Shown here in pieces: positions 27,834-60,040 of a stretch of 64,000 nt of DNA (the stretch's first letter is position 1; the number at the start of each line of letters is the position of its first letter). Below the pieces are notes generated by a model. The model did not search any database, was not told the DNA's origin, and was given only the letters and a program-made list of their open reading frames with translations. The translations under genes were made by a program, and so were the position numbers. Origin of the DNA: an uncultured Magnetospirillum sp. (GTDB lineage: Bacteria > Pseudomonadota > Alphaproteobacteria > Rhodospirillales > Magnetospirillaceae); contig NZ_CAINTR010000008.1 of NCBI RefSeq assembly GCF_903853455.1, positions 1 through 64,000 on the forward strand. The letters run 5' to 3'.

Positions 27834-28757
27834 TTACACTCCCACGAACTCCCCGGCGAGGCGGTATTCCTCGCCGTTCATGCCACGCTTGAAGGCGGCG
27901 ATGCCCGGCGTCAGCTTGTCGTCGATGCCGCCGAGGTCGAGCCAGCGCACGCCGCGCCTGGGCAATTCCACCACCGCTTCCCACAGCAGCCGGTTGTTGG
28001 CCTTGCGCTTGCGGCCCTCGTCGCCGTTCCAGCCGATCAGATAGGTGGCGGCGTCGCCGTGCCGCGCCAGCAGGATGCCGGCCACCGCCTCGGTCTCGGC
28101 ATGGGCGCGCAGCACCAGCAGGTCGTCGGGACGATAGGCCTGGGCGGCCAGCGCCTCCACCAGGGCCGGCGGGGTGGCGCCGAAGCCCTTGTCGCGCAGC
28201 AGCTCGCAATAGCGGTCCAGCAGCCAGGGCAGGGCGTTGGGGGTCGCTTCCACCACCAGGGCGGCCTTTTCCGAGGCGTTCAGCATGTTGCGCCACTTGC
28301 CGTCCAGCCGTTTGCGCAACGCGTCGGCCCCAAGCGACAGGTCGATCCAGGCCGAGCACCAGCTGTCGCCGGCGCGGCGGCGGAACCCCGGCACCTGGGC
28401 GCCTTCGGGCAGCTCGGGAGCCAGCGACAGCCCGGCCAGATTGAACCAGCGCCAGCGCGACCGCAGCGCCGTGATCACCACCAGCCGGTCGTTGGCCGAC
28501 ATCTCGCGCAGCCAGATGGGGCCACGGTTGAGCCGCCCGACCCGGGCCAGCCCGCCGATACGCTTTTCCAGCACCTGGGCCAGCGCCACCGGCTGCCCGG
28601 CCCAGCTCACCACCGCCCGGCACGGCCGCCAGCCCTCCACCGCCCGCTTGGCCTCGCCATAGGCCCAGCTCTGCACCAAGGTGGAGCGCCCGGCGCCGGC
28701 GAACAGCGCCTCCCACCCGTCGCGCTCCATCAGGTTCCACTCGACTCTTAAACTCAC
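27834..28757 (-). CDS. FemAB-like / GNAT-fold acyl or aminoacyl transferase
   Basis: A 307-residue protein of the FemAB-related GNAT group (BioF2-like). It starts WNLMERDGWEALFAGAGRSTLVQSWAYGEAKRAVEGW, has the DLSLGADALRKRLDGKWRNMLNASEKAALVV helix pair, and closes with the GNAT-like core RKRKANNRLLWEAVVELPRRGVRWLDLGGID and FKRGMNGEEYRLAGEFVGV. These match peptidoglycan or exopolysaccharide-associated transferases. It ends the minus-strand operon begun by the second AsnB. An amide-forming role on a glycan or peptide is inferred from that context; the true substrate is unknown. Confidence 0.75.
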   Translation of the reverse strand: MSLRVEWNLMERDGWEALFAGAGRSTLVQSWAYGEAKRAVEGWRPCRAVVSWAGQPVALAQVLEKRIGGLARVGRLNRGPIWLREMSANDRLVVITALRSRWRWFNLAGLSLAPELPEGAQVPGFRRRAGDSWCSAWIDLSLGADALRKRLDGKWRNMLNASEKAALVVEATPNALPWLLDRYCELLRDKGFGATPPALVEALAAQAYRPDDLLVLRAHAETEAVAGILLARHGDAATYLIGWNGDEGRKRKANNRLLWEAVVELPRRGVRWLDLGGIDDKLTPGIAAFKRGMNGEEYRLAGEFVGV

Positions 28758-34550: not shown

Positions 34551-34689
34551 GTCAGGGATTTCCGGCCTGTTGTGTATTAACTAGCTTGTACCCCGCCGCC
34601 GCCTTGGCCGGCAAGGCCATGGTGGAGCGCTTGTCCCGGCCCGAACATCTGTGCTAGTGCACGCAAGCCAGTATTCATGGAGGGATGCA

Positions 34690-34932
34690 GTGACCCATCG
34701 CGATGATGTCCGCGACCGGCTCCAGACGGTTTTCCGCGAAACCTTCGACGACGATTCCATCGAGCTTGCCGATGAAATGACCGCCGAGGACCTGGACGAC
34801 TGGGACTCGGTGTCCCACATAAGCCTGGTGCTGGCGGTGGAGCGGGAATTCGGCGTGACCCTGAACGCGGCGGAAATCGGTTCGCTGGAGAATGTGGGCG
34901 CCATGATCGCCATGCTCCGCGCCAAGAAATAA
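34690..34932 (+). CDS. Acyl carrier protein
   Basis: An 80-residue dedicated ACP. The phosphopantetheine serine is Ser40 in LDDWDSVSHISLVLAVEREFGV, and the four-helix pattern is complete (DRLQTVFRETFDDDSIELADEMTAEDL, then LNAAEIGSLENVGAMIAML). The GTG start is chosen because GGAGGG lies five bases ahead of it. It is not the fatty-acid AcpP, whose motif is usually DSLD. It starts the plus-strand set with a hotdog hydratase, a radical SAM enzyme and an FkbH-like protein, so it probably carries the unit they build. Confidence 0.88.
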   Translation: MTHRDDVRDRLQTVFRETFDDDSIELADEMTAEDLDDWDSVSHISLVLAVEREFGVTLNAAEIGSLENVGAMIAMLRAKK

Positions 34933-34948
34933 CACCAGAGGTGCCGTC

Positions 34949-35395
34949 TTGTCCGAGGCCGTCGTGATCGCCGCCCTTCGCCCCGAGGATATCGCGGTGG
35001 GAGCCTCCGCCTCCTTCGAGCAGCGGGTCGATGCGGCCGACATCGACGCCTTCGCGCTTCTTACCGGCGACGTGTCGCCGCTGCACATGGATGCCGCCTT
35101 CGCCCGCTCGCGCGGGCATCGCGACCGGGTCGCCCATGGGGTGCTGCTGGCCGGCTATGTGTCGCGGCTGTTCGGGGTGCACCTGCCGGGCCGCGACTGC
35201 CTGCTGCAATCCCTTAACCTGAAATGGCTGCACCCGGTCTGCGCCGGCGACACCGTGCGCTTCACCGCCACGGTGTCGCAGATCTCGGCCCCCGCCCGGG
35301 CGATGATGGCCGAGGTCGTGGTGGAAAACGCCGAAACCGGCGTGACGGTGGCGCGGGGCAAGGTTCAGGCGGGCTTCACCGGAGACGAGTCATGA
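34949..35395 (+). CDS. MaoC-like / (R)-specific enoyl hydratase, hotdog fold
   Basis: A 148-residue hotdog protein. FALLTGDVSPLHMDAAFA matches the hydratase-2 motif with the catalytic aspartate and histidine, then GHRDRVAHGVLLAGYVSRLF and LQSLNLKWLHPVCAGDTVRFTATV. PhaJ-type members hydrate enoyl-thioesters; some act on ACP substrates. The start appears to be a TTG with AGAGGTG upstream. It lies 16 bases after the ACP gene. A family 2 repeat directly follows its stop. Confidence 0.8.
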   Translation: MSEAVVIAALRPEDIAVGASASFEQRVDAADIDAFALLTGDVSPLHMDAAFARSRGHRDRVAHGVLLAGYVSRLFGVHLPGRDCLLQSLNLKWLHPVCAGDTVRFTATVSQISAPARAMMAEVVVENAETGVTVARGKVQAGFTGDES

Positions 35396-35397
35396 GC

Positions 35398-35520
35398 AAG
35401 GCCCCGGCGCTTGAGGGACGTGACCGGAGCGAAGCGACTAGCCCGTTGAGGGCGCGCGCCTCATGGCGCGAAAGCCAAGGGATGCGGCACGCATCCCGCC
35501 CGGCGCTTGAGGGACATAAA
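35398..35520 (+). repeat. Intergenic repeat, family 2, copy C
   Basis: Contains CCCCGGCGCTTGAGGGACG, CCGGAGCGAAGCGACTAGCC, GTTGAGGGCGCGCGCC, GCGAAAGCCAAGGGATGCG, a GATGCG/CGCATC stem, and CCCGGCGCTTGAGGGACATAAA. The closing GAGGGA is eight bases before the radical SAM ATG and is its only evident ribosome site. ATGAGC occurs on both sides (35392 and 35523), possibly a duplicated target. Confidence 0.75.
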
Positions 35521-35522
35521 CA

Positions 35523-37139
35523 ATGAGCGACGTGGATCTGATCCTGGTCTGCCAGTCCAACGTGCTGGATTACGACAGCCTGTCGGGTTTCCCGCTGGAC
35601 CGCCTGGACCTCTACAAGACCCTGGTCTATCCCCGCATGGTCCGCGACGGCGACCGCTTCATCGGCCATCTCGACGTCCTCAACAGCCTTGACGGCGGCA
35701 CCACCTATTTCGACGCCGACTATCCCCAGCGGCGCGAATTGCTCAATATCTGGAACCTGCCCTCGGCCAGTGGCCTGCACTTGGCCAATGTGCTGCTGGC
35801 CAGCGGGTTGCGGGTCAAGATCATCAACAACCTGGATTCCGAGTGGGATTGGTTCGAGACCGCCTATGCCGCCAACCGGACGCCGCCCCTGGTGGGCATC
35901 TCGTCCACCTTCTATCTCGGCATCAAGGAAATCGGCCGCATCGCCAAGCGCCTGCGCAAGCTTGATCCCGACATGGAGATCGTCCTGGGGGGCGCCCATG
36001 CCAACGGCAGGGCGGTGGGCGCCGGCGTGGCCTCGTTCGAGGCGCCCATGCGCCGCTACGGCATCAATTACGTGCTGCACGCCTTCAACTCCGACAGCGA
36101 TCTGCGCGACCTGCTGCTGGCGCGCAAGGGGGCCAAGAGCCTGGACACGGTGAAGAACCTCTGCTTCTTCGACCAGGGCCGCTTCACCGCCACCCGCTCG
36201 GAGTGGAACACCCCGCTGCTGGACGAGGTGCCGGCCAACTGGGACAAGGTGGACACCCCCTTCCTCAACCGCACCATCCAGATCCGCACCGCCTCCGGCT
36301 GTCCGTTCTCGTGCTCGTTCTGCTCGTACCCCACCACCGCCGGCGGCTGGAAGACCATCGAGGCCGAGCGGGTGCGCGCCCATCTGGAAAGCATCAAGCG
36401 CATCCCCGGCATCGACCGCATCATCTTCATCGACGACACCTTCAACGTGCCGCCGCACCGGTTCAAGGACCTGCTGAAGATCTTCAAGGACTACGATTTC
36501 GAGTGGTTCTCGTTCCTGCGCGTCCAGTATGTGGACGACGACATGGTTCGCAGCATGAAGGAATCCGGCTGCGCCGGCGTCTATCTCGGCGTCGAATCGG
36601 CCAGCGACCGCGTGCTGAAGAACATGAACAAGAAGGCGCGGCGCGCCGACTTCGCCCGTGGCATCGAGCTTCTGAACAAATACGACATCCGCTCGCTGTC
36701 GGCCTTCGTGCTGGGCTTCCCCGGCGAGGACGACACCTCCATCAAGGACAGCATCGACTTCATCGAGAATTGCGGCGTCGATTTCTACTCGCTGAAGGAG
36801 TTCTTCTACATGGAGAACACCGAGATCCACAATCAGCGCGCCCAGTTCGGCCTGACCGGCATGGGCACCAAATGGTCCCACGACACGATGAGCTACGACG
36901 AGGCCAGCCAGATCAAGCTGGAGATGTTCTCCTCCATCAAGAACGCCACCTCCATCGATCCCGACACCAGCCTGTGGTACCTTGCCTATCTCTACGACCG
37001 TGGCTACGGTTTCGACGAGATCAAGCGGTTGCAGCAGGGCATCAACGCCATCATGGCCGACCAGATGAACGGCGACATGTCGCGCGACAGCGCCGCCTAT
37101 CGGGCCTTGACCGACATGATGGCCAAGGCGGCGGAGTAG
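35523..37139 (+). CDS. B12-binding-type radical SAM enzyme
   Basis: A 538-residue protein. The N-terminal half looks like a cobalamin-binding Rossmann domain (PPLVGISSTFYLGIKEIGRIAKRL, then MEIVLGGAHANG). The radical SAM core has GCPFSCSFCSYP, the CxxxCxxC iron-sulphur site (C260, C264, C267), then RIIFIDDTFNVPPHRF, CAGVYLGVESASDRVLKNMNK and FVLGFPGEDDTS. Overall it resembles PhpK-like methyltransferases that methylate unactivated carbon or phosphorus. Two bases separate it from the FkbH-like gene, so its substrate may be the ACP-bound unit. Actual chemistry is inference. Confidence 0.82.
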   Translation: MSDVDLILVCQSNVLDYDSLSGFPLDRLDLYKTLVYPRMVRDGDRFIGHLDVLNSLDGGTTYFDADYPQRRELLNIWNLPSASGLHLANVLLASGLRVKIINNLDSEWDWFETAYAANRTPPLVGISSTFYLGIKEIGRIAKRLRKLDPDMEIVLGGAHANGRAVGAGVASFEAPMRRYGINYVLHAFNSDSDLRDLLLARKGAKSLDTVKNLCFFDQGRFTATRSEWNTPLLDEVPANWDKVDTPFLNRTIQIRTASGCPFSCSFCSYPTTAGGWKTIEAERVRAHLESIKRIPGIDRIIFIDDTFNVPPHRFKDLLKIFKDYDFEWFSFLRVQYVDDDMVRSMKESGCAGVYLGVESASDRVLKNMNKKARRADFARGIELLNKYDIRSLSAFVLGFPGEDDTSIKDSIDFIENCGVDFYSLKEFFYMENTEIHNQRAQFGLTGMGTKWSHDTMSYDEASQIKLEMFSSIKNATSIDPDTSLWYLAYLYDRGYGFDEIKRLQQGINAIMADQMNGDMSRDSAAYRALTDMMAKAAE

Positions 37140-37141
37140 GC

Positions 37142-38977
37142 ATGACGGATTGGGGGGGGATCAAGGCGCGGGCGGCGGCCGGCGATGCCAAGGGGGCCTT
37201 CGCCGGTCTGGCCGCCCTGGCGCGCCACGAAGACGATTTCGTCACCCAGCGCAAATACGCCCGCCTGCTGGACAAGCTGCCCAAGGACGGGCTGGAGCTG
37301 CGGCCGCTGAAACTGGCGTTGCTGGCGTCGTCCACCACCGACCATTTCGCCGAGATCCTGCGGCTATGGCTGGCGCTGGAGGGGTTCGACGCCGACATCT
37401 TCCAGCCGAGCTTCGGCCAGACCGCCCAAAGCGTGCTGGACCCGGCCAGCGACCTTTATGCCTTCGCCCCCGACATGGTGTGGTTCTTCGGCAACTGGCG
37501 CGACGTGCGCATCGAGGTGGCTCCGGGGGCCGGCCGCGCCGAGGTCGATGCCGCCATCGAGGCGGCGGTGGCCGAGGCCGCCGGCTTGTGGCATGCGCTG
37601 CAACGCCACGCCCCGGCCCTGATCGTGCACAATAACGCCGACATTCCAGCCATGGACGTGTTCGGCCATCTCGAGGCCAATGTGCCGTGGAGCCGCCGCT
37701 CGCTGCTGCGCCGCTACAACCTGGCGCTGGCCGACGCATTGCCGCCCGGCGTCAGCCTGTTCGATCTGGAGCATGTGTCGTCGTGCTGGGGCAAGGACCG
37801 CTGGACCGATTCCCGCTACTGGTACCATTCCAAGCACGCCTTCGCCTTCGACGCCGCCGGCACCCTGGCCTTCCAGTTCGCCCGGCTGGCCGGCGCCGCC
37901 AAGGGGCTGGCCAAGAAATGCCTGGTGCTGGACCTCGACAACACCCTGTGGGGCGGGGTCATCGGCGATGACGGCATGGACGGCATCAAGCTGGGCAACG
38001 GCGCCGCCGGCGAGGCCTTCGCCGATTTCCAGGACTATGCCCGCGAGCTGAAGGAGCGCGGCGTCATCCTGGCGGTGTGCAGCAAGAACGAGGACGCCAA
38101 CGCCCGCGAGCCGTTCGAGCACCACCCCGCCATGCGCCTGCGCCTGGACGACATCGCGGTGTTCCGCGCCAACTGGAACAACAAGGCCGACAATATCCGC
38201 GAAATCGCCGAGACCCTGAACATCGGCCTCGATTCGGTGGTCTTCGTCGACGACAACCCGGCGGAGCGCTCGCTGGTGCGCGACTTCCTGCCCATGGTGA
38301 CGGTGCCGGAACTGCCCGAGGACCCGGCGCTCTACGCCGCCGCCCTGCATCGCGAGCGACTGTTCGAGACCCTGTCCTTCTCGTCGGAGGACCGGGTGCG
38401 CAACGATTATTACCGCGCCAACGCGTCGCGTTCCGAGCTGCGCCACGCCTATGCCGACCTGGGCGAGTTCCAGCGGAGCCTGACGATGGTGGCCGCGGTG
38501 GGTGCGATCGACAGCTTCCACCTGCCGCGCGCCGCCCAGCTCATCAACAAAAGCAACCAGTTCCATCTGACCACCACCCGCTACGGCGACGCCGCCATCA
38601 AGGCCATGCTGGAAGATCCCGCCTGGCAGGGCCGCCATTTCAGCCTGAAGGACCGCTTCGGCGACAACGGCCTGATCGCGGTGGTGTTGCTGCACCGGCA
38701 GGGCGGCGACGCGCTCGTCGACACCTGGGTGATGAGTTGCCGGGTGCTGGGGCGCGGCATGGAGGAGTTCATCGCCAACGACCTGGTCCAGACCGCCCGC
38801 GCCATGGGCTGTCGTCACCTGATCGGCCGCTACATCCCCAGCAAGAAGAACAAGCTGGTGGCGGGATTGTATCCCCGCCTCGGCTTCACCTTGGTGGAAG
38901 ACCGCGACGGCGAGACCGTCTGGCGGCTCGACCTTGACGACGCGCCGCCCCTGACGACGTTCATCGCACGGGGTTGA
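37142..38977 (+). CDS. FkbH-like HAD-IIIC phosphatase/acyltransferase
   Basis: A 611-residue protein. An N-terminal SGNH-like region precedes the HAD domain with CLVLDLDNTLWGGVIGDDG (nucleophile D264, D266), LAVCSKNEDANAREPFEHHPAM, NWNNKADNIREIAETLNIGLDSVVFVDDNPAERSLVR, and a C-terminal GNAT-like domain (FGDNGLIAVVLL to YIPSKKNKLVAGLYPRLGFTLV). FkbH proteins load D-1,3-bisphosphoglycerate onto an ACP as a glyceryl thioester. The ACP at 34690 is the obvious partner. No polyketide synthase is in the window, so the product is probably used outside polyketide assembly. Confidence 0.87.
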   Translation: MTDWGGIKARAAAGDAKGAFAGLAALARHEDDFVTQRKYARLLDKLPKDGLELRPLKLALLASSTTDHFAEILRLWLALEGFDADIFQPSFGQTAQSVLDPASDLYAFAPDMVWFFGNWRDVRIEVAPGAGRAEVDAAIEAAVAEAAGLWHALQRHAPALIVHNNADIPAMDVFGHLEANVPWSRRSLLRRYNLALADALPPGVSLFDLEHVSSCWGKDRWTDSRYWYHSKHAFAFDAAGTLAFQFARLAGAAKGLAKKCLVLDLDNTLWGGVIGDDGMDGIKLGNGAAGEAFADFQDYARELKERGVILAVCSKNEDANAREPFEHHPAMRLRLDDIAVFRANWNNKADNIREIAETLNIGLDSVVFVDDNPAERSLVRDFLPMVTVPELPEDPALYAAALHRERLFETLSFSSEDRVRNDYYRANASRSELRHAYADLGEFQRSLTMVAAVGAIDSFHLPRAAQLINKSNQFHLTTTRYGDAAIKAMLEDPAWQGRHFSLKDRFGDNGLIAVVLLHRQGGDALVDTWVMSCRVLGRGMEEFIANDLVQTARAMGCRHLIGRYIPSKKNKLVAGLYPRLGFTLVEDRDGETVWRLDLDDAPPLTTFIARG

Positions 38978-39144: not shown

Positions 39145-39164
39145 CGAGCCGATTTATCGGCTCG
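39145..39164 (-). terminator. Hairpin terminator at the end of the SGNH-like gene
   Basis: CGAGCCGA and TCGGCTCG form a perfect eight-base stem around TTTA; the stop codon of the minus-strand gene lies in the loop. A compact stem at a gene end fits a terminator or mRNA-stabilising hairpin. Confidence 0.45.
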
Positions 39165-40170
39165 CGGGGATAACCCTTTCCGCTTTCAACCCTTCGACCA
39201 GCCGCGCCGCCCAGCGGGTGGTGGTGGTCGGCTTGGGATGGGTTCCATCGACGAAATCGGCGGCGGCGTTCATGTCCTGCATATTGACATAGGCACCGCC
39301 GCGCGCCTTGACGGCGACGATCATGGGCAGCTTGGCGCTCTGATAGCGGGCCCAGCGGGGGTCGCGGCTGCTGACCGTCTCGTTGACGGGCAGGTCCACC
39401 AGCACCAGCTTGCCGCCGCCACGGGCGACCTTGTCGGCGATGGCCACCACCCCGTCGAACTGCACCGACGGCAGGGGAACGTCCTCTTGCGGCGGCGGCG
39501 GCGGCGGCGGCGGAACCGCCGGAGCCGCCGGCTCGCCCCCCTGGGCCTGAAGCCAGCGCATGACGGCACCCTGCGAGCTCAGCGTGTTCTGCAACAGGAA
39601 GAACGGCCGCAGTGCCTGGACCACCAGATCGAAGCTTTGCGGCCGCACCGCCAGGGCGAAACCGTCGCCGCTGCGCCGGAACAGTCCGAACCGCATCATC
39701 TGGCGGGCCAGCGGCGTCGCCATGGGATTGCTTTCGCTGTGCAGGAACTCGCCGTGCCACAGGCCGAGGACGAAGACGAGACCGTCGCGGCTGCCCGGCG
39801 GCCGCTGGGCGTAGGCCAGATCCACCGCCACCCCCATGCCGTCGATATTGGTCCCGCCCACCGCCAGATTGTGAACCCGGATTCCGGGCGGCAGCAGGGC
39901 GGCAACCTGATCGGGACGCAGCCCGACCTCCACGTTGGACGGCCCGATGAGCAGGATGGCGGGATCGTTGCCAGCCAGCAACGAACTGCGGAAGGCCACA
40001 TAGGCCGGCTCGACCGCCAGGAAGCTGGCGGTGGCACGGGCCGAGTCCAACTGGATCTCCTCCGTCCTGGCCGCCGGTTCCAACAGCATGGCCGCGGCGA
40101 ACAGCGCCACGAAGACCGCCACCGCCGGCGCCACGATCTTGGCCACTTCGCCCAGGATCAGCCGCACCAT
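39154..40170 (-). CDS. SGNH-like membrane-anchored protein, MBOAT partner
   Basis: A 338-residue protein with one N-terminal membrane segment (IVAPAVAVFVALFAAAMLL) and an exported domain. LLIGPSNVEVGL sits where the GDS serine block is expected, and DGTHPKPTTTTRW supplies a D-x-x-H. A run of eight prolines separates two halves. It follows the MBOAT gene with TGAGATG, so the two are coupled, as in AlgI/AlgJ or DltB/DltD pairs that O-acylate cell-surface polymers. It may hand the acyl group to the glycan; hydrolase activity is not excluded. Confidence 0.72.
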   Translation of the reverse strand: MVRLILGEVAKIVAPAVAVFVALFAAAMLLEPAARTEEIQLDSARATASFLAVEPAYVAFRSSLLAGNDPAILLIGPSNVEVGLRPDQVAALLPPGIRVHNLAVGGTNIDGMGVAVDLAYAQRPPGSRDGLVFVLGLWHGEFLHSESNPMATPLARQMMRFGLFRRSGDGFALAVRPQSFDLVVQALRPFFLLQNTLSSQGAVMRWLQAQGGEPAAPAVPPPPPPPPQEDVPLPSVQFDGVVAIADKVARGGGKLVLVDLPVNETVSSRDPRWARYQSAKLPMIVAVKARGGAYVNMQDMNAAADFVDGTHPKPTTTTRWAARLVEGLKAERVIPASR

Positions 40171-40171
40171 C

Positions 40172-41836
40172 TCAAAAGCCCTTGTAGACGAAGTCGGGAA
40201 CCGACCCGGCATGGGTCAGCCCGACGAACAGCAGCAGGATCAAGCGCACCGACAGACCGGCGCGACTGGGCCCCGGCCGCTCGGGCGTGAGGTCGCGCAG
40301 ACCCCAGGCCAGCAGCATCAGCCCACCGCCCGCCGCCGCCTTCATGGCGTCGGGCAGGCCGATGCCGATCAGCGATTCCAATCGCGACCCCAGTCCCAGC
40401 AGGTTGCCCCAGATCACCGCCAGATAGAGGAAGCCGAGATAGGTGGCCACCGCGCCAGCCGGCATCCAGCGCCGGGCCAGGGCGATCAGCCAATCCCATC
40501 CCGACAGTGCCACGGCGCAGAACACCGCCATCACCACGAACAGCCGGACCAGACCCGACGCGCCGTAGAACCGGATCAGCTCGCCCCACTGGCTCGCCTC
40601 CAGCCACAGGCAGGACAGGGACAGGACGAAATAGGCAACCCAGATACCCCGGCTGACGGCGCCGTAGAGCGGCCGCGCCGCCAGGGCGGCATAGCGCTTC
40701 TTGCCCAGCCGGCCCTGCATCACCAGTTGGAACAGCTTGTTGACGGCGACACCGACGCCGAGGAAGGCGCCGTAATACCAGAACACCAAGGTGGTGCCGT
40801 GCCACACTCCCATCACCAGGAAGGTGACCAGGAAGGCCGGAACCGCCAGATAGGCCGAGGCCTTGCCGCGCCCGGCATGCTTGGCCGCCAGCTTCAGCAG
40901 GGTGTTGAACAGGTAGACCTTGAACCAGTTGGACAGGGTCATGTGCCAGCGCGACCAGAAATCCATGAAGTTCCGCGCGCTGAACGGCCGGTCGAAATTC
41001 TCCGGCAGGCGAAAGCCGAACAGCGCGGCGGCACCCAGCACGATATCCATGTAGCCGGCGAAATTGGCGTAGAGATAGACGGTGAAGGCCGCCCCATGGA
41101 GCAAAAGCCGCAAGGTGGTGCGCAGGGCCAGCTCGCCCTCGGCAGTGCCGAACACCAGGCCAATCCCCTGGGGGAATCCGCGTAGGACGCTGAGGCCGAA
41201 CGCCGAATCCGGCGCGATGGTCAGCGGCAGGCTGTCGGCGATGTCGTTGGCCACCACCGCCACCACCATGACCTTGACGAAGCCGGCGAGCATCCGTTCC
41301 AGGGCGACGCGGACCAGCGCCCGGTCGGGCGGCGTGGCGCTGTCGGCGACGAAGCGGACATGGTCCTCGTAGCGCTGGATCGGACCGGAAACGAAGGTGA
41401 GGAAGCAGAACAGGTAGTTGAAGGTGGCGGCCGGTCCCGGCACCGTCCGGATGGCGCCCTGACGGATGTCGACCACCAGATGCAGCACCCGGAACAGCAC
41501 ATAGGACAGGCCGACCGTGGTGTAGGAAAAACCCAGCAGAAGCGGCTCGGGCACGATGGTGTAGCGCTTGACCTCGATAAAGGCGGCAACCAGCACCAGC
41601 AGGACCAGCGGCAGCCCCCAAGGCCCACGCAGCCGCGCCGCCAGATGCATGGCGGCCCAGCCGGCCAGGGCGAAGGCGGCAAGAGGCAGCGCCGCCAGCG
41701 GATTGGCGAAGAAACTGGCCACGAACAGGAGGTTGACCGCCAGCAGCCTGAGGGGGCGCGGCACTCCGGGAAGGCCGTGGTAGACGACCAGAGCCCCAAG
41801 CAGATAGGCGAGGAAGGTTAGTGAGCTGATATCCAT
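40172..41836 (-). CDS. MBOAT family O-acyltransferase
   Basis: A 554-residue polytopic protein. It has SGPIQRYEDH, the NFDRPFSARNFMDFWSRWHMTLSNWFK block and GVWHGTT with the putative catalytic histidine 346. The family (AlgI, DltB, PatA) transfers acyl groups from cytoplasmic donors across the membrane. C-terminal membrane segments extend beyond the core. Its SGNH-like partner lies directly downstream. A second, distinct MBOAT is at 58496-60040, so this strain probably has two acylation modules. Confidence 0.9.
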   Translation of the reverse strand: MDISSLTFLAYLLGALVVYHGLPGVPRPLRLLAVNLLFVASFFANPLAALPLAAFALAGWAAMHLAARLRGPWGLPLVLLVLVAAFIEVKRYTIVPEPLLLGFSYTTVGLSYVLFRVLHLVVDIRQGAIRTVPGPAATFNYLFCFLTFVSGPIQRYEDHVRFVADSATPPDRALVRVALERMLAGFVKVMVVAVVANDIADSLPLTIAPDSAFGLSVLRGFPQGIGLVFGTAEGELALRTTLRLLLHGAAFTVYLYANFAGYMDIVLGAAALFGFRLPENFDRPFSARNFMDFWSRWHMTLSNWFKVYLFNTLLKLAAKHAGRGKASAYLAVPAFLVTFLVMGVWHGTTLVFWYYGAFLGVGVAVNKLFQLVMQGRLGKKRYAALAARPLYGAVSRGIWVAYFVLSLSCLWLEASQWGELIRFYGASGLVRLFVVMAVFCAVALSGWDWLIALARRWMPAGAVATYLGFLYLAVIWGNLLGLGSRLESLIGIGLPDAMKAAAGGGLMLLAWGLRDLTPERPGPSRAGLSVRLILLLFVGLTHAGSVPDFVYKGF

Positions 41837-43752: not shown

Positions 43753-44655
43753 ATGACCGCCCCCGCCAAAACCGACATCCAAGCCTTCTGGAAGGCGCTG
43801 TACGACTCGCTCTACGAGGACGTGGACGCCTCGCTCACCCGCGACGCCCTGTTCTCGTCGCTGGACGACCTGGAGGACATGTTCCGCCTGCGCAAGCATA
43901 TGGCGGTGGTGGAGATGCCGCTCGGGGATCTGGCCGGCAAGCGGGTGCTGGAGGTCGGCCCCGGCGCTGGCGGCCATTCCGCCCTGTTCGCCAAATACGG
44001 CGCGGTGATGACCAGCCTGGACATCACCCCGGCGCGGGCCCGGGCCACCGAGGCCAAGTTCCGCCTGATGGGGGACACGGCCGCAGGCTGCCACGCCGTC
44101 AACGGCGATTCCGAGGCCCTGCCCTTCGCCGACGCCACCTTCGACATCGTCTATTCCAACGGGGTGCTGCACCACACCCTGGACACCGAGCAGGCCATCG
44201 CCGAGGTGTTCCGGGTGCTCAAGCCCGGCGGCCGGGCGGTGATCATGCTCTATTGCAAGAGCTCGTGGCACTACTGGATCAACATGTTCCTGCCTATCGG
44301 TCTGCTGATGGGCAAGGCGTTGCGCGACCCTAACTGGCTGGGCAAGGCCACCGAATGGGGCGGCAAGAACAAGCAGAGCGTCGCCAATCCGGTGACCCGC
44401 TGCTACACCGGCTCCGGCATCGCCCGGCTGTTCGCCGCCTTCAACGACGTGCGCGCTCGCAAGGGCGAGTTCTACTGGTATCTGGTGCCCAAGCTGGGCC
44501 GCCTCTACCGCAAATACCAGATCAAGCGCTACGGCACCCATCCCGGCGGGGTGCTGGTCTATGGCGAGCCCTGGCCGATCCAGTCGCCCTTAGAGCTGAA
44601 ACTGGGCGAGATCATGGGCTTTTCCTGGTTCATTTCGGCAACGAAACCGGACTAG
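43753..44655 (+). CDS. SAM-dependent methyltransferase whose stop codon is the IS border
   Basis: A 300-residue Methyltransf_11-type enzyme: RVLEVGPGAGGHSALFAKYGAVMTSLDITPARARATEAKF, then FDIVYSNGVLHHTLDTEQAIAEVFRVLKPGGRAVIML. GAGGATC precedes the ATG. The TAG stop (44653-44655) uses the TA and G at the very end of the outer IS630 element. Rebuilding the empty site gives the same TAG, so the protein was not shortened. Substrate unknown; a sugar or lipid-linked glycan is likely from context. Confidence 0.82.
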   Translation: MTAPAKTDIQAFWKALYDSLYEDVDASLTRDALFSSLDDLEDMFRLRKHMAVVEMPLGDLAGKRVLEVGPGAGGHSALFAKYGAVMTSLDITPARARATEAKFRLMGDTAAGCHAVNGDSEALPFADATFDIVYSNGVLHHTLDTEQAIAEVFRVLKPGGRAVIMLYCKSSWHYWINMFLPIGLLMGKALRDPNWLGKATEWGGKNKQSVANPVTRCYTGSGIARLFAAFNDVRARKGEFYWYLVPKLGRLYRKYQIKRYGTHPGGVLVYGEPWPIQSPLELKLGEIMGFSWFISATKPD

Positions 44656-44782: not shown

Positions 44783-45142
44783 ATGGGCAAGCCGTATTCC
44801 TTGGATCTTCGCGAGCGCATTTTCAACTACATCGCGGCGGGACATTCTCGACGGGATGCTGCGCGGGTGTTTGGCGTCAGCCCGAGTACGGCGGTGCGGC
44901 TGGCGGCCAGCCATCGTGACCGGGGCAGCATCGCGCCGAAGCCGCAGGGGCGTGCGCCGGGTACGGCAGGCAAGCTCGTTCCGCACATGGATTTCCTGGC
45001 CGAGATGGTGCGGACAGAGCCGGACATCACGCTTCAGGAGTTGGCAGGAGCTTTGGCCGAGACGCACGATGTATCGGTCGTGCTTTCGTCGATACATCGA
45101 GCGTTGGTGCGATCTGGATTGTCATATAAAAAAAAGGCCTGA
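44783..45142 (+). CDS. IS630 transposase, N-terminal part (inner element)
   Basis: 119 residues with the DNA-binding helix-turn-helix GHSRRDAARVFGVSPSTAVRLAASH and a second helical domain. GGAGGTGACGC precedes the ATG. It ends SYKKKA and stop, right after eight consecutive A (45128-45135). The rest of the enzyme is in the -1 frame, read from the same A-run. Slippage on the run would fuse both parts. Confidence 0.85.
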   Translation: MGKPYSLDLRERIFNYIAAGHSRRDAARVFGVSPSTAVRLAASHRDRGSIAPKPQGRAPGTAGKLVPHMDFLAEMVRTEPDITLQELAGALAETHDVSVVLSSIHRALVRSGLSYKKKA

Positions 45143-45213
45143 TCGCTCAGGAGCGAGAGAACGCTGACCTCCGGCAGTACCGGCGAGAATGGGTCTCCCA
45201 TCGTCAGCCCCGA

Positions 45214-45744
45214 ATGCGAGAAGCGCCGCAACGAATTGTATTTATTGATGAAACCTCGGTCAAAACCAACATGACCCGGCTGCGAGGACGGAGCCCCGTC
45301 GGTGAGCGCCTCTTCGGCGTCGCCCCCTTTGGGCGCTGGCAGACTCAGACCTTTATCGCCGGGCTCACTTTCAACGACTTCATCGCCCCCTGGGTCATCC
45401 CAGGCGCGATGAACAGGGATGCATTTGATACGTACATAGAGACCCAACTCGCCCCAGCCCTGGAGCCGGGTACGGTGGTCATCCTCGACAACTTGGTTAC
45501 CCACAAGAGCCCAAAGGCCGTCCAGGTGCTCAAGGCGCGCAGATGCTGGATGCTGTTTCTTCCTGCGTATTCGCCGGATCTCAATCCGATCGAGATGGCG
45601 TTTTCAAAGCTGAAAGCCCATCTCCGCAGAATCGGAGCGCGAACCTACGACCAACTGATCCAGGCGCTCGGCGACATATGCGATCTCTTCGAGCCCCAAG
45701 AGTGCTGGAACTTCTTTAAGGCCGCCGGATATGCGCCATATTAA
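45214..45744 (+). CDS. IS630 transposase, catalytic part (inner element)
   Basis: DDE-type catalytic domain: first aspartate in IVFIDETSVKTNM, second in VVILDNLVTHKSPKA, glutamate in [21 protein letters not shown]. The frame is open back to the A-run at 45130 (GLIAQERENADLRQY), so the ATG at 45214 is only a formal start. It is expected to be made as a fusion with the upstream part by -1 frameshifting or transcriptional slippage. Confidence 0.85.
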   Translation: MREAPQRIVFIDETSVKTNMTRLRGRSPVGERLFGVAPFGRWQTQTFIAGLTFNDFIAPWVIPGAMNRDAFDTYIETQLAPALEPGTVVILDNLVTHKSPKAVQVLKARRCWMLFLPAYSPDLNPIEMAFSKLKAHLRRIGARTYDQLIQALGDICDLFEPQECWNFFKAAGYAPY

Positions 45745-45792
45745 ACGCAAACTGCTTTAATCGTGATTCACTTCCTGTGGAGGTGGCCCGCG

Positions 45793-46197
45793 ATGACTCG
45801 AGCTTTATCCGTAGATCTGCGCGATCGTGTTGCGCGATATGTTCTGGCCGGCCATTCGCGCCGACAGGCGGCCAGTGTCTTCAATATCTCGGTGAGCTCG
45901 GCGGTACGCTATGTGGCGCAATATCTGTCGAGTGGGACGGTGGCGCCAAAGCGGCAAGGCGGTGATCGGCGCAGTAAATTGGGCGATCATCGGGCCTATG
46001 TGCTGCTGCGTGTTAAGCAGGTTCCGGATATCTCCCTGGTCGATTTAACCAAAGAACTGGCCGAGCGGGGCGTTCAAATCCATCTTTCCAACCTTGCCCG
46101 GTTTCTACGGGCACAGGGGCTGACCTATAAAAAAAACTTTGGTCGCGTCCGAGCAGATGAGGCCGGATGTCCGGTTGCTGCGCGAGGAGTGGATTAA
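45793..46197 (+). CDS. IS630 transposase, N-terminal part (outer element)
   Basis: 134 residues: [45 protein letters not shown] is the helix-turn-helix region. GGAGGTGG lies ahead of the ATG. The correct reading reaches LTYKK at an A8 run (46129-46136), after which this frame runs on into unrelated residues until 46197. The catalytic part is in the +1 (or -2) frame, the opposite offset from the inner element. Confidence 0.82.
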
Positions 46198-46744
46198 GGG
46201 CCGCCAACCGCTGATGCGCCGTCAAGCCCATCGTCTGGTGTTCCTCGACGAGACCGGAACCAATACCAAAATGACCCGTCTGCGCGGCCGCTCACCCAAA
46301 GGGGCGCGGTTGAAAGCCTCTGTACCCTTCGGGCATTGGAAGACGGAGACTTTCATCGCCGGGCTGCGTCATGATGGCCTGGTGGCCCCCTTTGTCATCA
46401 ATTGCCCGATGAACCGGAAGATGTTCGAGGCCTATATCGAGACCCAACTGGCCCCAACCCTGGAACCGGGCGACGTCGTGATCCTCGACAATCTCGCGGC
46501 CCACAAAAGTCCTCGGGCAGAACGGATCATCCGAGATCGTGGCGCATTCATGCTGTTCCTGCCGCCGTATTCTCCCGACCTCAATCCCATCGAAATGGCG
46601 TTCTCGAAGCTCAAGGCCCACCTCCGGAAAAGGGAGGCCAGGACAATTCAGGACCTATGGGACGCCATCGGCCGAATCTGCGATCTCTACGAGCCCGAAG
46701 AGTGCCGGAATTTCTTCAAGGCCGCCGGATATGAACCAGTATGA
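46139..46744 (+). CDS. IS630 transposase, catalytic part (outer element)
   Basis: DDE domain with [28 protein letters not shown] and [23 protein letters not shown], all three acidic residues intact. The frame is open back through the A-run ([21 protein letters not shown]). It overlaps the first part by 59 bases. One base lost from the A8 run would give a continuous transposase, so this may be a one-base frameshift mutant or rely on slippage. Confidence 0.82.
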
Positions 46745-57520: not shown

Positions 57521-58492
57521 TCAAAGACCACATGCCGCCAGGGCGGGGCCGGCCCGCTCGGTGAAGCTCTTTCCCCAGCGCTCGGCCTCCGGCACCGTCA
57601 TGTGGCTGCCGTCGAAGCCCCAATAGCCCTCGGTCGGCACGTCCACATAGGGCGCACCGATGGCGGCGGCGATCTGGCGGGAGTATTCGGGATTGCCGTC
57701 CACCGACGGCACCGTGGTCAGGATCAGGCAGCCGCCGCGCTCTTCCACCATGCGCTTGAACTCGCGGCCGGTCTCGATGATGTGGGTCAGGCCGGTGGGC
57801 GTCTCGGTGAGCGGCCGGATGAGGGTCGCCGGCACGTCCGGCAGATCGACGGTCAGCGCCCGCCCATTCAGCCGGGAACGATACTGGGCCATGGCCTTGC
57901 CGCAGATCAGGTCGGACAGCCGGTTGCGGTCGTCGCGGCACAGCTTGCGATGGATGCCCAGCGCCATGGATTTGAGCTTGTACTCCAGCTCCACCTCGGG
58001 ACGGCCGGAGATGATCCGGCGGCCCCACAGATTGATGGAGTTGAAGAAGAAATAGTCCTCGTTGACCACGACGACGCGCGGATGCAGGTCCAGCTTCTGA
58101 ACCACCAGCTTGGCGAACAGGTCCCATTCGCCGTTGATGGAGGCGTTGAAGGTCTTCAGGCCGCGCTGCTCGAACGGCTGGCGGAAGGAGTCGGCGGAAA
58201 AGCCGATCACCGCCCGGCTGTTGCCGAGAAACAGGGCGTCGGCCGCCTTGACGTTGGCGACCGCTTCCGGCTCCTTGCCCAGCCACAGCGCCGCGTGCTC
58301 GTAATCGCCGAAACCGCGGTCGGCGCAGGTCCCCATGAAGAACTCGTCGGAATAGCCGGCCGGCGAACAGCGGAACACCCAGAAATTGGCCGACAGCCGG
58401 CCGTCGACGGCGCTACCGGCCAGGGACAGCACCAGGGCCAGCGCTCCCCAGCCCAGCAGAATGCGCAGATAGCGAACGGAATTGCTGCTCAT
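57521..58492 (-). CDS. SGNH-like protein, MBOAT-associated
   Basis: A 323-residue protein with an N-terminal membrane segment (YLRILLGWGALALVLSLAG). ADALFLGNSRAVIGFSADSF corresponds to the serine block and FDGSHMTVPEAERW to the D-x-x-H block. It is the last gene of the minus-strand operon, after the MBOAT by three bases, and probably completes an acylation module. Confidence 0.72.
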   Translation of the reverse strand: MSSNSVRYLRILLGWGALALVLSLAGSAVDGRLSANFWVFRCSPAGYSDEFFMGTCADRGFGDYEHAALWLGKEPEAVANVKAADALFLGNSRAVIGFSADSFRQPFEQRGLKTFNASINGEWDLFAKLVVQKLDLHPRVVVVNEDYFFFNSINLWGRRIISGRPEVELEYKLKSMALGIHRKLCRDDRNRLSDLICGKAMAQYRSRLNGRALTVDLPDVPATLIRPLTETPTGLTHIIETGREFKRMVEERGGCLILTTVPSVDGNPEYSRQIAAAIGAPYVDVPTEGYWGFDGSHMTVPEAERWGKSFTERAGPALAACGL

Positions 58493-58495
58493 GGG

Positions 58496-60040
58496 TCAGA
58501 ACTGCCAATAAATGAATTCAACGGGCTGCATCGACTGGATGAAGGCGACGCAGCCGACGACGATCATGACCACCGCCCAGGCGATGTTGGGCGACCACGC
58601 CCCGATCCGCGCCAACAGGCCGGGAGTCGGCCGCTCTCCCAGCGCCGGCTGGTGGGCGTGCAGCCATTCCTGGGTGTTGGGCAGCACCAGGGCCAGGGCC
58701 AGCACCAGCAGGGTCACCGCCAACTGATGGAAGCCGAGGAAATAGGGCAGCGACTGCCCGGCGTTCACCGTCGCCGGCCCCAGCACCGGCGCCAGGATGC
58801 GCGCCACCGATTGCAGGCCGGGGGTGACCACCAGCCGCCCCTCGGCGGCGACCATGCCCTTGAAGATGTTCAGCGCCGCCTCGAAGCTGGCGGCGCGGAA
58901 GAACACCCAGGCCAGCATCACCGCCACGAAGGTCACCAGCCAGCCCAGGGCGCGGTACGGGAAAGCCGGCCCCGGCATCCGCCAGCCGGTGCGCTCGACC
59001 AGCATCCGCCAGCCGTGGTTGATCATCAGATAGATCCCGTGCAGCCCGCCCCAGACCGCGAAGGTCCAGTTGGCGCCGTGCCACAATCCGCCCAGCAGCA
59101 TGACCACCATCAGGTTGACCATGCGGCGGCTTTCGCCGTGCCGGTTGCCACCCAAGGGGAAATAAAGGTAGTCGCGCAGAAAGCGGGACAAGGTGATGTG
59201 CCAGCGCCGCCAGAAGTCGATGATGCTGGTGGCCTTGTAGGGCGAATTGAAGTTGACCGGAAAGCGCAACCCGAACATGCGGGCCAGGCCGATGGCCATG
59301 TCGGAATAGCCGGAGAAATCGAAGTAGATCTGCAGCGTGTAGGCCAGGGCGCCTGGCCAGGCTTCCAGGAAGGTGATGGGGTCGCCCGCCGCCGCGCCGT
59401 CGAACATGGGCGAGGCGTAGCGGGCCATGGCCTCGGCGATCACCACCTTCTTGAACAACCCGGCGATGAACAGGGTCAGGCCGACCGACACGTTCTCGGC
59501 ATCCAGCCCGGCCTTGCGCGCCTGATATTGGGGCAGGAACTCGGCGTGGTGGATGATCGGACCGGCGATCAACTGGGGAAAGAACAGCACGAACAGCGAG
59601 AATTCCAGCATGTCGTAGGGCTTGGTCTCGCCGCGCCAGCAATCGACCAGATAGGCGATCTTCTGGAAGGTGAAGAACGAGATGCCCAACGGCAGCGCCA
59701 CCGTGACGACGAAGCCGTCGAGACCGGTCAGGCTGGCGAGGGTGTGGCTGAACAGCCCGGCATACTTGAACCAGCCCAGGACACCCAGGTTGAACGTCAG
59801 TCCGAGGATCAGGACGGCGCGCGACCGGGTCTCCGCCAGGGCCTTGCCCAGGCGGTAGTTGACCAGGGTCGAGCCCAGGATGAGGGCGAGATAGCCCACG
59901 TTCCACCAGCCGTAGAACACGATGGAGCACAGCACCAGCCAGCCGGTGGCGGCGCGGCGTCCGAAACGGCCGCACAGCGTATAGCCGCCCAGGGTGGCGG
60001 GCAGGAACACCAGCATGAACAGGTAGGAGTTAAACAGCAT
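58496..60040 (-). CDS. MBOAT family O-acyltransferase
   Basis: A 514-residue polytopic acyltransferase close to AlgI: MLFNSYLFMLVFLPATLGGYTLCGRFG, LPLGISFFTFQKIAYLVDCWRGE, AGPIIHHAEFLPQ, FSGYSDMAIGLARMFGLRFPVNFNSPY, DFWRRWHITLSRFLRDYLYFPLGGNRHG and the catalytic-histidine motif GLWHGANWTFAVWGGLHG. It should move acetyl or similar groups to exported glycan. Flanked by SGNH-like genes on both sides. Confidence 0.92.
   Translation of the reverse strand: MLFNSYLFMLVFLPATLGGYTLCGRFGRRAATGWLVLCSIVFYGWWNVGYLALILGSTLVNYRLGKALAETRSRAVLILGLTFNLGVLGWFKYAGLFSHTLASLTGLDGFVVTVALPLGISFFTFQKIAYLVDCWRGETKPYDMLEFSLFVLFFPQLIAGPIIHHAEFLPQYQARKAGLDAENVSVGLTLFIAGLFKKVVIAEAMARYASPMFDGAAAGDPITFLEAWPGALAYTLQIYFDFSGYSDMAIGLARMFGLRFPVNFNSPYKATSIIDFWRRWHITLSRFLRDYLYFPLGGNRHGESRRMVNLMVVMLLGGLWHGANWTFAVWGGLHGIYLMINHGWRMLVERTGWRMPGPAFPYRALGWLVTFVAVMLAWVFFRAASFEAALNIFKGMVAAEGRLVVTPGLQSVARILAPVLGPATVNAGQSLPYFLGFHQLAVTLLVLALALVLPNTQEWLHAHQPALGERPTPGLLARIGAWSPNIAWAVVMIVVGCVAFIQSMQPVEFIYWQF

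Follow-up and report, generated by a model that had tools for sequence, protein, structure and literature searches.

Contig NZ_CAINTR010000008.1 of an uncultured Magnetospirillum sp. is 174,775 bases long, and its first 64,000 bases (called the window) probably encode a Dlt-like pathway for O-acylation in a Gram-negative bacterium, where an FkbH protein plays the role of DltA and an exopolysaccharide is acylated. Its observed basis is gene content, sequence motifs, predicted folds and linkage measured against controls, and from these we infer what each enzyme catalyses, which acyl group is moved and what accepts it. An earlier note on this DNA had singled out four genes at 34551-38977, for an acyl carrier protein (ACP), a hydratase, a radical SAM enzyme and an FkbH-like protein. 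These four genes are real, but the set (termed here the cassette) is larger, as genes for an SGNH-type protein and an MBOAT acyltransferase stand just past the reported end. The genome measures 5.18 Mb, and of the named genomes scanned Paramagnetospirillum marisnigri SP-1 comes closest to it (82% identity); the host is akin to the magnetotactic Paramagnetospirillum.

All four genes are intact open frames in one direction on the plus strand, and profiles and motifs bear out the four products named above. The ACP of 80 amino acids (34690..34932, +; PF00550, 22.4 bits, cut-off 20.8) has its attachment serine intact in WDSV. Judged from the sequence, its most likely start is the GTG at 34690, after a GGAGGG (34679..34684, +) which is likely the ribosome-binding site. 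The MaoC-type hydratase/dehydratase of the hotdog fold (34949..35395, +; PF01575, 58 bits) retains its catalytic D and H in GDVSPLH, and GDxxPxH is found in 20 of the 21 MaoC proteins listed, the window's included. The gene of the radical SAM enzyme (35523..37139, +; PF04055, 88 bits; CPFSCSFC) overlaps by 4 bases with that of FkbH (37136..38977, +), a complete protein with FkbH_N and FkbH/HAD-IIIC domains (TIGR01686, 294 bits, cut-off 147; PF21211), the HAD motif LDLDNTLWGG and also VCSKN, which is the predicted glyceryl-ACP loader. Glycan-type genes surround the set, including asparagine-synthase-like, glycosyltransferase, Wzy_C and heparinase-like genes.

The SGNH/MBOAT pair on the opposite strand (39154-41836) belongs to this ACP-MaoC-radical SAM-FkbH set. 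The MBOAT membrane acyltransferase (40172..41836, -; PF03062) is encoded 5.2 kb from the ACP gene and falls in a branch of cassette MBOATs with 100/100 support. Its C-terminal FVYKGF (40175..40192, -) fits the acyl-shuttle hexapeptide FxYxxF given in the consulted part of a study of such enzymes (PMC12148441). Of 19 cassette MBOATs, 18 carry a tyrosine four residues from the C-terminus, and eight hold the exact FxYxxF. The SGNH-type acyltransferase, predicted to be periplasmic (39154..40212, -; the start may be the ATG at 40170), gave no family match in Pfam and NCBIfam profile scans; GxSN and TH are invariant in an alignment of six, and its predicted structure (predicted local distance difference test, pLDDT, 73.5) resembles GDSL esterases, PatB and DltD in a fold search. 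Further ordinary MBOAT genes are present at 57521-60040 of the window and at 77589-80010 and 83861-85279 of the contig, some adjoining SGNH-like frames by eye, and the surface region therefore appears to hold several acylation systems.

The link between this type of MBOAT and carrier genes was measured with test MBOATs picked solely by similarity to the window's MBOAT (E<=1e-30), which turned up in 12 of 149 genomes (the host's included), and with 40 control MBOATs, the best 40 rows when 60 genomes were searched for MBOATs in general. Within 4.3 kb, an ACP gene accompanied 9 of the 12 test MBOATs and FkbH 10 of the 12, against no ACP among the 27 controls with full flanks (0/40 for all) and a single FkbH in 40 (Fisher 1e-6 for ACP; Fisher values are too small here because the genomes are related). 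Within 6 kb the figures were 11/12 for ACP and 10/12 for FkbH versus 0/40 and 2/40, both control FkbH loci being already known; at this distance the two sets are not evenly covered, because the control sequences had been trimmed at 6 kb from the hit's midpoint (most reach only about 5.2 kb) or stopped at contig ends, and the count was therefore repeated at 4.3 kb, where 27 of the 40 controls have full flanks. A wider ACP profile at E<0.01 still returned no ACP near the control MBOATs. One of the controls (L113, G011) is itself part of a cassette, with an ACP gene that at about 6.1 kb from the MBOAT just escapes the limit. Cassette loci, including some of the test loci, served to train the ACP and FkbH profiles; six test genomes did not enter the training, and among these ACP was found within 6 kb in 6/6 and FkbH in 4/6. 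In a tree of 74 MBOATs (bootstrap rough), a branch with 100/100 support separates 24 MBOATs of cassette-type loci from all others, and seven more cassette-type MBOATs lie among the ordinary type, five of these together (99/94). The tree shows placement and not rate, since many rows were fetched for the FkbH or radical SAM gene; its counts exclude the ordinary window MBOAT at 58499-60040, and the pair of MBOATs from L076, close to a second FkbH, carries no label.

The radical SAM search over the same number of genomes (149, own included) found relatives with at least 60% identity in the host's own genome and eight others. In a scan of named genomes the cassette recurs, with shuffled gene order, at 21 loci from several phyla, these eight included, and by record titles the hosts comprise Rhodospirillales, Acetobacteraceae, a Desulfobulbus, an Omnitrophica and a Binatia bacterium, with many of the genomes assembled from metagenomes. 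MaoC is present at 20 of the loci and FkbH, ACP and MBOAT at 18 each (tblastn E 1e-3), where the counted MaoC and ACP of L041 come from a second, distant copy, the counted ACP of L043 is only 30% alike, and three of the counted MBOATs (L040, L042, L049) belong to the ordinary type. The earlier note had proposed to look for co-occurrence of the four genes in other genomes, and as the set does recur, it is more than chance. In Telmatospirillum siberiense 26-4b1 the full six stand in one place, and FkbH-ACP-MBOAT-SGNH is also found without the radical SAM gene.

Seven MBOATs of the branch have no shuttle tail (L055, L072, L073, L074, L075, L080 and L081), and all seven have, on the same strand within 4 kb, a frame of 35-44 amino acids with one hydrophobic stretch (one-helix) that ends in AYQQF or AYQRF; in L055 this frame overlaps the MBOAT stop. 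AYQxF before a stop was absent from 433,345 control bases, and elsewhere among the searched loci it was seen only in L041, in the identical place to L074. A looser microprotein pattern gave about one candidate per 9.2 kb in controls and was set aside, thus the strict AYQ[QR]F ending alone was used. Judged by sequence, a tail-less MBOAT with a separate predicted peptide looks like the arrangement described for DltX in the portion of PMC12148441 consulted.

Beyond the training of the profiles and the relatedness of the genomes, several observations weigh against the Dlt-like reading. The fold matches of the SGNH-type protein are weak (best E 1.6e-4, query template-modelling score 0.35-0.42). A shuttle-like ending closes 43 of 44 control MBOAT domains and is hence general, so that we dropped it as a mark of carrier use. 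The window's MBOAT scores 171 bits against the DltB equivalog model (cut-off 375), and DltB membership by score was dropped as well, for the model scores ordinary and cassette MBOATs alike. With the model non-discriminating and the motif general, carrier use is argued from linkage alone. This linkage has its gaps: the closest like ACP in P. marisnigri is about 45 kb off, tblastn of the loci returned no FkbH in L043-L045 and no nearby ACP in L039, L044 and L045, and the stretches of L041, L054 and L058 hold no MBOAT, two of which (L054, L058) reach a contig end, and the genome of L041 has an MBOAT further on, beside its second set. The polyketide-flanked relatives described below count on the same side.

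The route that we propose joins two reactions from the literature: FkbH enzymes are described to form a glyceryl-carrier from 1,3-bisphosphoglycerate (PMC8949500, PMC7489565, both cited from excerpts), and DltB takes D-alanine from the carrier DltC (PMC12148441, likewise). Glyceryl-ACP would then pass through tailoring to the MBOAT tyrosine and on to the SGNH serine. In the window, FkbH would take glyceryl from 1,3-bisphosphoglycerate and load the dedicated ACP, and MaoC and the radical SAM enzyme would modify the ACP-bound three-carbon unit, probably by dehydration and C-methylation in either order. The MBOAT would take the acyl group over from ACP onto the tyrosine at its own C-terminus, on the outer side of the membrane, from where the serine of the SGNH protein may pass it to a hydroxyl of the acceptor, presumably the exopolysaccharide of the surrounding genes. 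The pair overlooked in the earlier note would thus give the export mechanism. That note's glyceryl unit on ACP, destined for a surface glycan, finds support in the conserved linkage and the MBOAT/SGNH pair; its glycan part is not universal, given the six relatives where the cassette sits beside a polyketide synthase (PKS). A wider proposal, which we hold only tentatively, is that carrier-fed MBOAT/SGNH acylation extends beyond teichoic acids, with acyl groups from 1,3-bisphosphoglycerate and DltX-like microproteins in Gram-negatives, the window's version adding a B12 radical SAM step that would place a C-methylated three-carbon acid on exopolysaccharide. To our knowledge, such an acid is not known on glycans.

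What the tailoring yields depends on the radical SAM enzyme. Its nearest NCBIfam model is that of the PhpK P-methyltransferase (TIGR04479), and its score of 383 bits is below the cut-off of 600, which places it outside the PhpK family. Its Pfam B12-binding match is also below cut-off (27.8 bits versus 32.1). The cysteines CxxxCxxC are kept in 22/22, and the predicted fold (pLDDT 78.9, with poor modelling of residues 256-274 in the region of the cysteines) comes closest to TsrM, MgmA, AprD4, CysS, OxsB and TokK. These are mostly B12-dependent enzymes, several of them methylases, but AprD4 is a diol dehydratase. Family and modelled fold suggest that the enzyme is likely a methylase, with a C-methylated unit as the likeliest product; this is likely and not firm, because AprD4 is among the nearest folds. 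The earlier note had spoken of a possibly methylated unit, for which these two observations, PhpK as nearest family and the predicted fold, are the grounds, and the score outside the PhpK family qualifies the first of them. Should the enzyme instead deoxygenate the glyceryl diol like AprD4, the pathway would otherwise run as favoured and deliver a 3-hydroxypropionyl- or lactyl-type unit. Among PDB sequences the profile matches AprD4 best, AprD4 is also one of the best fold matches, and a short-chain dehydrogenase/reductase (SDR), which could give lactyl, often replaces the radical SAM enzyme in relatives, but the AprD4 family score of the radical SAM enzyme is just 65 bits against 383 for PhpK and the remaining top folds are B12-dependent, several methylases, so that we regard deoxygenation as unlikely. 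An SDR, separate or fused to MaoC, lies within 4 kb of FkbH in 10 of 17 loci that have FkbH but no radical SAM gene, compared with 1 of 22 loci within 4 kb of the radical SAM gene (a weak match in L043; Fisher 2.6e-4); leaving out the four loci that seeded the SDR profile, the counts are 6/13 and 1/22 (Fisher 0.006). The radical SAM enzyme seems to stand in the place of the SDR, and MaoC with SDR would, we infer, dehydrate and reduce glyceryl-ACP to lactyl-ACP. MaoC-SDR fusions beside ACP, FkbH, an SGNH-like frame and MBOAT were seen at L073 5555-7009 (scanned) and L075 10166-11611 (by similarity), and would suit this lactyl-ACP route. A genuine P-methyltransferase role for the enzyme, with a phosphinate decoration as the product of the set, is hardly credible: PhpK is the nearest NCBIfam model at 383 bits, but the four cassette members scored reach 353-386 bits while a relative elsewhere passes the cut-off of 600, and phosphoenolpyruvate mutase (TIGR02320) has no match in the own genome. 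P-methylation and phosphonates were rejected on these grounds. The relative in question is a non-cassette radical SAM protein from a relative of the same order (L032 9198-10751), with 644 bits.

Two more alternatives to the Dlt-like reading concern the destination of the unit. The cassette might provide polyketide or lipid synthesis with a starter or extender unit, and be a leftover or a trans-acting supplier here. Large PKS-type frames, homologous among the six loci, do flank it in L046, L047, L051, L052, L056 and L059, and two of those of L052, when scanned, proved to be PKS modules. A 2,435-amino-acid frame, unscanned, lies beside the cassette in L043, and no SGNH was noticed beside the MBOAT in the unscanned gene lists of the six PKS loci and L043. 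The unit is therefore not always tied to a glycan, and at the PKS-flanked loci the acceptor may be a lipid or polyketide. In the window, where the earlier note had seen no polyketide synthase and had named polyketide genes just outside as grounds for giving up its reading, MBOAT and SGNH accompany the cassette; ketosynthase PF00109 has no match on the whole contig, and the own-genome matches lie only on four other contigs in frames of 401-548 amino acids, which makes this alternative very unlikely here. The ACP-bound unit might also be transferred in the cytoplasm to an amino or nucleotide sugar, with MBOAT and SGNH merely acetylating the glycan. A FemAB/GNAT-like protein is encoded at 27834-28757, and a methylated glyceroyl substituent of a surface glycan is known from Campylobacter jejuni, whose flagellin carries pseudaminic acid with a 2,3-di-O-methylglyceroyl group (PMC3068675, in the part consulted); that group may be an instance of such a cytoplasmic transfer. 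But ACP and FkbH accompany the MBOAT clade, also at loci that lack the radical SAM gene, and this does not hold for ordinary MBOATs; we consider cytoplasmic transfer quite unlikely here.

In Gram-positive bacteria, D-alanine is passed via a carrier protein through the membrane onto a surface polymer. The proposed pathway resembles this Dlt system of teichoic acid D-alanylation (DltA/B/C/D/X) in its carrier protein, MBOAT, SGNH partner and shuttle tyrosine, fused here and on a separate small peptide in relatives. It differs in the predicted loader, FkbH instead of the adenylating DltA (no DltA-type adenylation gene was noted in the cassette, though the genome was not searched for DltA), and in an acyl unit from glycolysis, tailoring enzymes and a Gram-negative exopolysaccharide setting. 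An MBOAT with a C-terminal shuttle motif and an SGNH partner is shared with PatA/PatB O-acetylation of peptidoglycan and AlgI-type O-acetylation of alginate. Acetyl-CoA has been shown to be the donor for PatA, and according to the consulted part of a recent paper (PMC12148441) MBOAT/SGNH pathways apart from Dlt operate without a carrier protein or DltX-like peptide, whereas here a carrier gene is found beside the MBOAT. In contrast to that account, as far as the excerpt goes, these loci appear with a carrier, some also with a peptide, and with a different loader. FkbH with a dedicated ACP is also familiar from polyketide units (methoxymalonyl-ACP, tetronates), but no dehydrogenases, O-methyltransferase or FabH-like partner were seen in the cassette and the MBOAT adjoins instead; the two dehydrogenases and O-methyltransferase expected beside FkbH/ACP for methoxymalonyl-ACP were absent from its frames and Pfam scan. 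The PhpK/BcpD P-methyltransferases are the nearest sequence family of the radical SAM enzyme, from which it departs in its score below the family cut-off and in a genome without a PEP mutase match. The di-O-methylglyceroyl pseudaminic acid of C. jejuni is likewise a methylated glycerate on a surface glycan, although there it is an amide on a nonulosonic acid, likened by its substituent and not by the enzymes of the route. A second FkbH outside the window (contig 107967-109918, L035 3967-5918; TIGR01686, 267 bits) recalls this case, since it adjoins a 101-amino-acid frame that no NCBIfam model matched, and the frames of that stretch resemble, by eye and from the start of their translations, nonulosonic acid genes.

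Within the open-licence PMC literature, consulted in part, we found no paper that links FkbH with MBOAT/SGNH glycan acylation, and the one joint match for FkbH, MBOAT and ACP concerned aeruginosins (PMC10143770). On the sequence evidence, what would be new is a form of MBOAT/SGNH acylation that draws on a carrier protein loaded by FkbH. If true, the principle of carrier-fed acyl export would reach wider, a genetic handle would exist for glycerate-type esters of bacterial polysaccharides, and the PhpK-like radical SAM clade would gain a likely ACP-bound substrate. Beyond the MBOAT, the block ends with a methyltransferase gene (43753-44655), just past which transposase-like pieces were seen by eye at 44783-46744 of the window.

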